Of a stretch of 64,000 nucleotides of DNA, positions 42,077 to 52,655 are shown piece after piece. The stretch covers positions 868,001 to 932,000 of the forward strand of contig NZ_JAFJYB010000001.1 of assembly GCF_018777385.1 (NCBI RefSeq), given 5' to 3'. Each line of letters starts with the position of its first letter. Position 1 is the first letter of the stretch. This stretch comes from Candidatus Symbiopectobacterium endolongispinus. GTDB lineage: Bacteria > Pseudomonadota > Gammaproteobacteria > Enterobacterales > Enterobacteriaceae. The notes under the pieces were generated by a model. It saw nothing but the letters and a program-made list of their open reading frames with translations, had not been told where the DNA came from and made no database searches. The position numbers and the translations under genes are program-made.

Positions 42077-42236
42077 TTATACCCGTCATACTTCACGTTG
42101 CAGATACGTTGGCTGTGCTCACTCCCCCGAATCACTTACTTCAGTGGCTCATCGGGATTGAGGAATCTCATCCCTGAGATTCCACCTGTGGGCCAGCGCT
42201 TGCCGTCTTCCTGCAACTCGAATTATTTAGGGTATA
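42077..42236. repeat. Dispersed ~160-bp intergenic repeat, copy 1
   Basis: The element runs from TTTATACCCGTCATACTTC at one end to AACTCGAATTATTTAGGGTA at the other. It has an internal palindrome (GGAATCTCATCCCTGAGATTCC). A second copy in the opposite orientation lies at 49565-49768. Such elements with CGTCATACTTC and AATTATTTAGGGTA ends are common between genes in Pectobacterium and related genera. No transposase is encoded. Confidence 0.75.
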
Positions 42237-48794: not shown

Positions 48795-49574
48795 ATGCCT
48801 GACACCCATCGTTATACCGGCCGTTTTGCCCCATCGCCTTCCGGCGATCTTCATTTTGGTTCCCTGATCGCAGCATTAGGCAGCTATCTACAGGCACGCG
48901 CCCATCGTGGCCGCTAGCTGGTGCGCATTGAAGACATCGATCCGCCGCGCGAAGTCGCTGGCGCGGCAAGCCGCATTCTTTCACAGTTGGAACACTACGG
49001 TTTGCTGTGGGATGGCCCAGTGCTTTATCAGTCCCAACGGCATGCGCGTTATCTGGAAGTGCTGGCCAAACTGAAAGCGCGCCACCAGTGCTACTACTGC
49101 GATTGCACGCGCCAACGCATTCATTCACTGGGCGGGCAGTATGATGGCCATTGCCGTACGCGCCAACTGGGCCCTACTCACGCCGCCCTTCGTTTGCGCC
49201 AAGACAACCCGGTGTTGCACTTTCACGACAGGTTGCGCGGAGAACTGTATGCCGTTCCAGCGCTGGCACAGGAAGATTTTATCATTCACCGCCGCGATGG
49301 ATTATTCGCCTATAATCTTGCCGTTGTGGTGGATGACCACAATCAAGGGGTAACGGAAATCGTGCGCGGCGCAGACCTGATCGCCCCTACCGTCCGGCAG
49401 ATCGCGCTCTATCAACAGCTAGGCTATCCGGTACCGGATGGCGATCCGCGTCCGGTACTGTTAAGCGCGCTGCGCTTTCTTAATCAGCCGTTGCCGTAGC
49501 ATTGGCAGGACATGGCGTTGCCGCTCCTTTTACAGTGGGCCGTTAGCCGTTGGTCACTCGCGTCTATATCCTAA
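48795..49574 (+). pseudogene. gluQ: gluQ, glutamyl-Q tRNA(Asp) synthetase, three lesions
   Basis: GluQ attaches glutamate to queuosine-34 of tRNA-Asp. From 48795 ([20 protein letters not shown]) the frame meets TAG at 48915-48917 (codon 41), where the family has Trp in [13 protein letters not shown]. The rest stays in frame. About 24 residues that carry the KLSKQN ATP-site motif are missing between YQQLGYPVP and GDPRPVLL. A second TAG at 49497-49499 precedes HWQDM, and the remnant ends at 49574 inside a dispersed repeat. The Zn cysteines (CYYCDC) remain. Confidence 0.88.
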
Positions 49575-49768
49575 ATAATTCGAGTTGCTGGAAGACGGCA
49601 AACGAATGACAAATCAGTCTGGAACAGATTTGAACAGCGCTCGCACTGGCCCGCAGGGGGAATCTCAGGGATGAGATTCCTCAATCCCGATGAGCTTACT
49701 CAAGTAAATGATTCGGGTAAAAAGAGTGTAGCCAACGCACCTGCGGCTTGAAGTATGACGGATATATT
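49565..49768. repeat. Dispersed ~200-bp intergenic repeat, copy 2 (inverted)
   Basis: This is the reverse orientation of the element at 42077-42236: it starts TATATCCTAAATAATTCGAG and ends TTGAAGTATGACGGATATA, with the same inner palindrome (GGAATCTCAGGGATGAGATTCC). About 40 more bases are present than in copy 1 (around 49605-49645). It abuts the 3' end of the gluQ pseudogene. Confidence 0.75.
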
Positions 49769-49892
49769 CCGTTAATCGGAGCATTCGATGTGGCTGAGGC
49801 AACATCGGCATTCTCAAAGGTGGCGCGGTGAGCTATGATTAGCCGCTATTTTTTGTTGTGCCGTTATTTTTTCATCACTATCGAGGTGTACC

Positions 49893-51296
49893 ATCTTTAC
49901 CCGAGTCGCTAATTTTTGTCGCAAGGTACTCAGCCGCGACAATGACGTGGCCACCGCGGAGCCCGTGCGCCAGGCTATGACCGTGATTCCGCGCGACCAG
50001 CATAACCTTTCGCGCAGTGATATCAGCGAAAATGCGCTGAAGGTACTCTATCGCCTGAACAAATCGGGCTATGAAGCCTATCTGGTTGGCGGCGGCGTAA
50101 GAGATCTGCTGCTGGGGAAAAAACCAAAAGATTTTGATATCACCACCAATGCGACGCCGGAGCAGGTGCGTAAATTATTTCGCAATTGCCACTTGGTTGG
50201 CCGCCGTTTCCGCCTCGCTCACGTTATGTTTGGCCCTGAAGTGATCGAAGTCGCGACCTTTCGCGGCCATCACGAGCAACATCAGGAGCAGCAGCTAAAA
50301 ACCACTTCGCAGCAGGCACAGAGCGGCATGCTGTTACGCGATAATATTTTCGGCAGCATTGAAGAAGATGTGCAACGCCGCGATTTTTCCATTAACAGCC
50401 TCTATTACAGCGTCGCCGATTTCAGCGTGCGTGATTACACCGGCGGGTTAAACGATCTGCGTCAGGGCGTGATCCGGTTGATTGGCGATCCCGAAACCCG
50501 CTATCGGGAAGATCCGGTACGCATGCTGCGCGCCGTGCGCTTCGCCGCCAAACTAAACATGACCATCAGCCCGGAAACCGCCGAGCCGATTCCACGTCTG
50601 GCGACATTGCTGCACGATATCCCCGCCGCACGCCTGTTTGAGGAATCTCTGAAGCTGTTGCAAGCGGGCTACGGTTACCCGACGTACCGTTTGCTGTGCG
50701 AATACCAACTGTTTCAGCCGCTGTTCCCGCTGATCAGCCGCCACTTCACGCCTAACGGCGATAGCCATTTGGAAAAAATGGTGGCGCTGGTGTTAAAGAA
50801 CACCGACCAGCGGTTGCAAAATGACATGCGCGTTAATCCGGCGTTTCTGTTTGCCGCCATGCTGTGGTACCCGTTGATCGAGCATGCGCAGAAACTGGCA
50901 CAGGAGAGTGGATTAACCTACTTCGACTCCTTCGCCCTTGCCATGAACGAAATTTTGGACGAACAGTGCCGTTCTCTTGCCATTCCCAAACGTATCACCT
51001 CGTTAGTGCGTGATATATGGCAGTTGCAGTTGCGCCTGTCACGGCGTCAGGGCAAACGCGCCTACAAGCTGATGGAGCACCCGAAATTCCGCGCTGCCTA
51101 CGATTTGTTGTGCCTGCGTGCCGAAATTGAGCGTCAGCCAGAGCTGCAACGTCTCTCTCAATGGTGGGGAGAATTCCAGGTCGCTACGCTGCCGCGCCAG
51201 CAAGCCATGCTCAGCACGCTGGATGATGGCCCTACGCCACATCGCCACTCCCGACGCCGTAAGCCGAGTGCGCCGCGCAGAGAAAGAACCTCGTGA
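49893..51296 (+). CDS. pcnB: Poly(A) polymerase I, non-AUG (ATC) start
   Basis: PcnB adds poly(A) tails to RNA and controls RNA decay and plasmid copy number. Family similarity ([13 protein letters not shown]) extends upstream of the first GTG (49947) to an ATC at 49893, preceded by GAGGTG at 49883-49888. E. coli pcnB is known to use AUU at this very place, so a rare start appears conserved. Motifs are [23 protein letters not shown] (catalytic Asps) and [11 protein letters not shown]; the C-terminus is Arg-rich. Length is about 467 aa. The stop overlaps the folK start (GTGA). Confidence 0.88.
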
Positions 51297-51882: not shown

Positions 51883-52655
51883 ATGAAACCGACAACCCTA
51901 ACCTACCTACGCAAGTGTAAGCAGGATAAGCGTAAATTCGCGACCATTACCGCCTATGACGCCAGTTTTGCCCGCTTATTCTACGACAATGGCATTCGCG
52001 TGATGCTGGTGGGTGATTCGCTAGGCATGACGTTACAAGGCCATGATTCCACGCTGCCAGTGACCGTCAGTGACATTGCCTATCACACCCGCTGTGCCTG
52101 CTGCTTGCTGACCTGCCGTTTATGGCTTATACCACGCCAGAGCAAACGTTTACGAATGCGGCGGAAGTGATGCGCTCCGGTGCCAACATGGTTAAACTGG
52201 AAGGCGGCCAATGACTTGCCCCCACGGTGAAGATGCTGACCGAGCGCGCGGTACCCGTGTGCGGCCATCTGGGATTGACGCCGCAATCGGTGAATATTTT
52301 CGGTGGCTACAAAGTTCAGGGACGCGATGAGGCTGCGGCGGCGCAATTACTGGATGATGCGTTAGCGTTGGGGGCTGCGTGCGCCCAACTGCTGGTGCTG
52401 GAATGCGTGCCGGTTCCGCTGGCACAGCGTGTCACCGAGGCATTGTCGATCCCTGTTATCGGCATTGGCGCAGGTAACGTCACCGATGGCCAAATTCTGG
52501 TGATGCACGATGCGTTCGGCATCACCGGCGAGAACACACCCAAATTTGCTAAAAACTTTTTAGCACACAGCGCCGACATCCCCGCCGCCGCGCGTCTTTA
52601 TGTGCAGGAAGTTGAGCAGGGACTTTACCCTGCCGAGGAACATTCGTTCCGTTAA
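51883..52655 (+). pseudogene. panB: panB, ketopantoate hydroxymethyltransferase, disrupted
   Basis: PanB forms ketopantoate, the first committed step of pantothenate synthesis. From 51883 ([20 protein letters not shown]) the start is normal, including [19 protein letters not shown]. After YHTRC a deletion of roughly 25-30 bases (near 52095) removes the segment before [11 protein letters not shown] and shifts the frame. The sequence continues as [20 protein letters not shown], meets TGA at about 52212 in place of the Trp after LEGG(Q), and then reads [20 protein letters not shown] to the end at 52655. panC and panD downstream are intact. Confidence 0.88.

Follow-up and report, generated by a model that had tools for sequence, protein, structure and literature searches.

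At which codon does translation of pcnB, the gene for poly(A) polymerase I, begin in Candidatus Symbiopectobacterium endolongispinus, where the first canonical start codon downstream of the apparent ribosome-binding site is codon 19 of the conserved reading frame? The question is raised by a 64,000-nucleotide stretch of contig NZ_JAFJYB010000001.1 (positions 868,001 to 932,000, assembly GCF_018777385.1), here called the window, whose own numbering is used throughout. The AUU start of pcnB in Escherichia coli is already known and annotated; Binns and Masters are said to have described it in 2002, and their work is reportedly the source of the claim that it keeps expression low. The initial annotation of the window proposed that pcnB begins at an ATC with GAGGTG four bases before it, at the same place as the E. 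coli start, with coding similarity running upstream of the first GTG to this ATC, and that a weak start may be conserved while the codon itself drifts.

The pcnB frame is open from the ATC at 49893 to the stop at 51296, and its product is a PcnB orthologue, scoring 956.2 bits against the NCBIfam equivalog NF008634 (curated cut-off 702) over residues 1-465 and having 79% identity with its E. coli counterpart across residues 1-445. Its first 15 residues, counted from ATC, are the first 15 of E. coli PcnB, and the gene order dksA, gluQRS, folK around it is that of E. coli. From 49883 the window reads GAGGTG TACC ATC TTT ACC CGA GTC GCT AAT TTT TGT CGC AAG GTA CTC, and the duplex energy with the anti-Shine-Dalgarno sequence is -9.8 kcal/mol at ATC vs -0.3 at GTG 49947, which is the first canonical codon downstream, as the initial annotation had it (Table 1). 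No ATG, GTG or TTG occurs among the 18 codons between TGA 49836-49838 and the ATC. The window start is thus of the E. coli kind, a non-AUG codon placed as in E. coli, with the same GAGGTG and spacing and with no usable canonical start. The codon, however, is AUC and not AUU, both here and in 21 of the 80 named relatives described below, which makes it a variant of that kind and rules out a sequencing error or a peculiarity of a single genome.

Table 1. Features at and around the 5′ end of pcnB (window coordinates).
Feature	Position	Strand	Evidence or remark
Repeat element, ~207 nt, following the 3′ end of gluQRS and preceding pcnB	49566..49772	+	Missing from the relatives L003 and L005; internally ~70 nt shorter in the relative L004
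Stop codon TGA, in frame upstream of pcnB	49836..49838	+	Sequence reading
Shine-Dalgarno sequence GAGGTG	49883..49888	+	Anti-Shine-Dalgarno duplex -9.8 kcal/mol; same place in 82/82 genes
Spacer TACC, 4 nt	49889..49892	+	Window sequence; 82-gene alignment
Proposed pcnB initiation codon ATC (AUC)	49893..49895	+	Sequence and alignment of relatives
pcnB, poly(A) polymerase I, 467 aa counted from ATC	49893..51296	+	NCBIfam NF008634; alignment with E. coli PcnB
Codons 2-13, conserved N-terminal segment of 12 residues	49896..49931	+	Variation almost only synonymous
GTG, first in-frame canonical start codon (codon 19)	49947..49949	+	Rejected as start: Shine-Dalgarno energy -0.3; aligned codon ATG/GTG/TTG in 33/82

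The repeat element upstream of pcnB leaves the Shine-Dalgarno sequence and start untouched; a second, partly similar copy lies on the other strand at ~42078-42235. gluQRS (48795-49568) retains only an open reading frame of 192 amino acids with a shortened match to E. coli GluQRS, is nearly full length in L003, and looks like a pseudogene in the window. panB (51883-52655) is split into two frames of 95 and 142 amino acids, one matching the first part of TIGR00222 and the other the second. An Rfam search near the pcnB start returned only two matches, both far under the gathering score. The small RNA CssrA matches at 49712-49846 over the full model length, with 25.7 bits against a gathering score of 93. 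Two weak sites from a promoter scan upstream of pcnB, against a shuffle mean of 0.8, were given no weight.

An alignment of pcnB 5′ ends across Enterobacterales had been proposed as a check on the ATC start. Within the family, 82 genes were aligned, namely those of the window, E. coli and 80 named relatives, the best 80 of 278 from a scan of a genome collection. Codon 1 is ATT in 59 and ATC in 21 of these 80 relatives and no other codon in any (ATT 60 and ATC 22 in all 82), and the gap between GAGGTG and codon 1 is exactly 4 bases in every one of the 82 genes. Such third-base variation alone would also fit an internal isoleucine codon. Minority bases at codon positions 1, 2 and 3 number 11, 0 and 262 over codons 2-13 and 488, 463 and 393 over codons -16 to -4; since the codon-position pattern changes at codon 1, protein-coding constraint begins there, and the coding similarity claimed upstream of GTG 49947 is confirmed as far as the ATC.

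These data leave scarcely any credibility to the reading that ATC is an internal isoleucine codon of a protein begun further upstream: although 18 open codons precede it, and an in-frame ATG occurs upstream in three of the 82 genes, where it is not conserved, and five codons upstream in four of the seven genes of another family (f25), no coding signature extends upstream of codon 1, the AGG before codon 1 belongs to the Shine-Dalgarno sequence and is invariant in 82/82, 39 of the 82 genes (window included) lack any ATG, GTG or TTG from the in-frame stop to codon 1, as do 59 of 96 genes of other families from the stop to the ATT/ATC, and in Dickeya (L014, L019) an in-frame stop lies six codons upstream. 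Initiation at GTG 49947, with the frame upstream of it being an untranslated leader open by chance, is also very improbable. GTG is an ordinary start codon at which a mechanical list of open reading frames begins the gene, and the catalytic part of the protein comes later, with TIGR01942 beginning at residue 31 and the match to the nearest poly(A) polymerase structures (chains 3aqk to 3aqn) at query residue 29. However, the GTG has almost no Shine-Dalgarno pairing, the codon aligned with it is canonical in no more than 33 of the 82 genes, and the nearly exclusive silent change in codons 2-13 is not expected of an untranslated leader. The position and sequence context that the initial annotation gave for initiation at the ATC are borne out.

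The ATC is a property of a clade. On a tree of the 82 PcnB proteins, built with the first 20 residues removed, ATC requires two changes. The gain falls in the common ancestor of Symbiopectobacterium, Pectobacterium, Samsonia, Brenneria, Dickeya and Lonsdalea, and the loss is a reversion to ATT in Prodigiosinella. The window protein groups with Candidatus Symbiopectobacterium and is 99% identical to that of L003. A record titled Serratia marcescens strain 1001295B_180824_A7 (L005) carries a Symbiopectobacterium-like pcnB with 94% identity that also groups with Symbiopectobacterium, and its label or binning looks wrong. A looser family search, in which the start codon was left free, matched the start region in 278 of the 392 genomes of the GTDB family; among 150 listed of these 278, 138 have ATT and 12 have ATC (counted by eye), with no other codon. 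Many of the 114 genomes that gave no match are of 1.5 Mb or less. In one genome that is 49% complete (G413:C1:4238163-4238201), an extra T stands directly after the pcnB ATT, through either an error or a broken gene. Thus, the proposal that a weak start is conserved while its codon drifts is supported, by ATT or ATC only in all 80 relatives and in the 150 listed genomes and by one change and one reversal on the tree; the drift is a slow process that has left AUC clade-wide and not peculiar to one genome.

Of 5426 E. coli genomes, 5372 matched a 43-nt query centred on the ATT, with no match covering less than 80% of the query; 5369 of the matches have at least 99% identity, in which the aligned part has no mismatch and must include the start codon, and three have 95-99%. 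RefSeq annotation starts E. coli pcnB at the ATT in both records examined.

Beyond the family, the reading of pcnB 5′ ends covered 130 genomes in 23 further families of this GTDB order (one match set of 51 genomes without G019, and 80/80 of another). By hand labelling, 96 of these, in 17 of the 23 families, have ATT or ATC (labelled ATH) at the start of the conserved N-terminal helix, 25 have ATG or GTG and 9 are unclear, labels that were set after sight of the sequences with ATH as the default and are thus not blind. When the ATH codon with the strongest Shine-Dalgarno sequence is taken in each of the 96, 81 are ATT and 15 ATC, and 93 head the conserved helix (exceptions L160, L240 and L278); several of these genes carry two or three adjacent ATH codons, so that the exact start among them is ambiguous. 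A codon-blind test, taking in each of the 130 genes the in-frame codon with the best Shine-Dalgarno sequence (run of at least 5, spacing within 1), selected ATT or ATC in 70, ATG, GTG or TTG in none and other codons in 18, with no such site in 42. With a run of at least 6, 59 of 83 in-frame codons are ATT, ATC or ATA against a background of 8.2%, and the other two frames give 1/87 and 0/94; these counts and the binomial p-values attached to them treat related genes as independent trials, and the genes are kin. Outside the order, 28 of 199 matching genomes of the class were read, and starts were mixed and N-termini not alignable. Because 25 of the 130 genes have ATG or GTG by hand label, the non-AUG start does not seem to be indispensable.

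Start codon and Shine-Dalgarno strength appear to trade off. Across the 96 ATH genes, the median energy is -9.4 kcal/mol (range -11.3 to -3.9) for the best ATH site and, in the 82 of them having any ATG, GTG or TTG, -3.3 for the best canonical site. For the 25 canonical genes the figures are -3.4 kcal/mol (range -7.8 to 0.8) at the best canonical site and -4.1 (23 genes) at the best ATH site, while medians are -6.1 canonical and -5.1 ATH in the 9 unclear genes, and -6.0 canonical (25 genes) and -5.1 ATH (22 genes) outside the order. Since the canonical medians outside the order are stronger, the weakness of canonical-start sites is marked within the order and less so outside. The families with ATG or GTG starts (f8, f15 and parts of f20 and f21) mostly have no strong Shine-Dalgarno sequence; in part of f20, the ATG stands one codon ahead of the former start, which now reads GTA. 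These lineages look as though something other than the codon held their initiation rate low, a lead that comes from the non-blind labels. Individual genes with an ATG start and no recognisable Shine-Dalgarno sequence are L182, L183, L286 and L296 in f20 and L162, L243, L245-L247 and L249 in f21, and the f21 genes so named are missing the N-terminal PcnB helix.

How would an AUC start act? AUC reportedly acts like AUU in vivo. The third base of the window codon mismatches the initiator anticodon CAU, on the assumption that CAU reads it. We consider it very probable that pcnB translation starts at AUC 49893 in the following manner. A strong Shine-Dalgarno sequence at fixed spacing would bring in the ribosome, the normal initiator tRNA would read the AUC so that the protein begins with fMet, and initiation factor IF3 would reject most attempts at the mismatched third base, leaving PcnB scarce. 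Purifying selection would hold the third base off G, with a single T-to-C change in the clade's ancestor. The sequences show the reading frame, the position of the codon, its conservation and the lack of alternatives; the cellular use of AUC, the low yield and the discrimination by IF3 are what we infer, the latter two from work on E. coli. Low PcnB in E. coli is ascribed to its AUU (cited in PMC9764084; PMC1780047), and IF3 disfavours weak third-base pairs and lowers full-length product in vitro at AUU read by CAU (PMC10158994). The E. coli pcnB ribosome site is called poor in one of these papers (PMC9764084), in contrast to the strong Shine-Dalgarno complementarity found here.

The gene for IF3 itself, infC, was compared in the same lineage. 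Its start is ATA in all five genomes of the window's genus (G000, at C4:561793, G410, G537, G616 and G681) and ATT in 9/9 genomes of Pectobacterium, Samsonia and Prodigiosinella. In the genome of the window, an in-frame stop two codons upstream leaves only GGT or ATA possible as the infC start. The infC pattern was matched in 97 of 129 family genomes, with 32 giving no match; by eye, ATA is found in the window's genus and in one other (G496), and the remaining infC rows have ATT. An apparent ACT start in G448 was ruled out, with an ATT standing two codons earlier. In this lineage the third base has thus shifted in both genes for which E. coli is known to use AUU, to C in pcnB and to A in infC, and to G in neither.

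A different account of why the pcnB start has stayed non-AUG is that PcnB belongs to an IF3-sensing circuit with infC, and that more than a low level is being kept. The non-AUG infC start of the same genus, its third base likewise changed, and the placing of AUU in the IF3-sensitive class (PMC9410913; PMC1780047) both favour it. The mostly weak Shine-Dalgarno sequences of the ATG- or GTG-start pcnB genes suggest instead that the level, and not IF3 sensitivity, is what is kept, and we regard the circuit as rather unlikely. As a broader and tentative conjecture, possible if somewhat doubtful, pcnB and infC may form a very small, ancient regulon of IF3-sensed starts, with AUH and a strong Shine-Dalgarno sequence across ~18 families (the window's own and 17 others), in which RNA polyadenylation and decay would be tied to the state of the initiation factors and lineages with AUG would stay low by lacking a Shine-Dalgarno sequence.

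Low-level initiation at AUC, the reading preferred here, has several known counterparts. E. coli pcnB is alike in gene, position, GAGGTG, spacing and first 15 residues and differs in having AUU, whereas the AUC of the window is common to its whole clade and has a predicted effect on expression. E. coli infC, with its IF3-autoregulated AUU (PMC9410913; PMC1780047), is alike in that an AUH start is conserved while the third base changes, to ATA in the window's genus. It differs in being another gene, and one for which autoregulation is known. We know of no autoregulatory loop of the IF3 type for pcnB. In Staphylococcus aureus, cvfC1 (AUU) and ccpN (AUA) also combine a weak start codon with a strong extended Shine-Dalgarno sequence, an arrangement that yields less product, and the cvfC1 start is conserved among staphylococci (PMC13009471). 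However, these are unrelated genes of another phylum, and their starts were shown by ribosome profiling and reporters.

Annotation programs often ignore starts besides ATG, GTG and TTG, as stated in PMC5601948, and the literature examined treats the AUU of pcnB as an E. coli case. Neither the AUC version nor the order-wide ATT/ATC start was found in the open literature searched, and Binns and Masters (2002) may mention orthologues. That many families keep an AUH start at one place, with a third base that varies but avoids G, is evidence from nature for selection on weak initiation as such. By comparing lineages, the apparent trade-off between Shine-Dalgarno sequence and start codon allows one to test how the level of an RNA-decay enzyme is held low in bacteria, and makes directly testable whether it is the level of PcnB or the sensing of IF3 that is kept.
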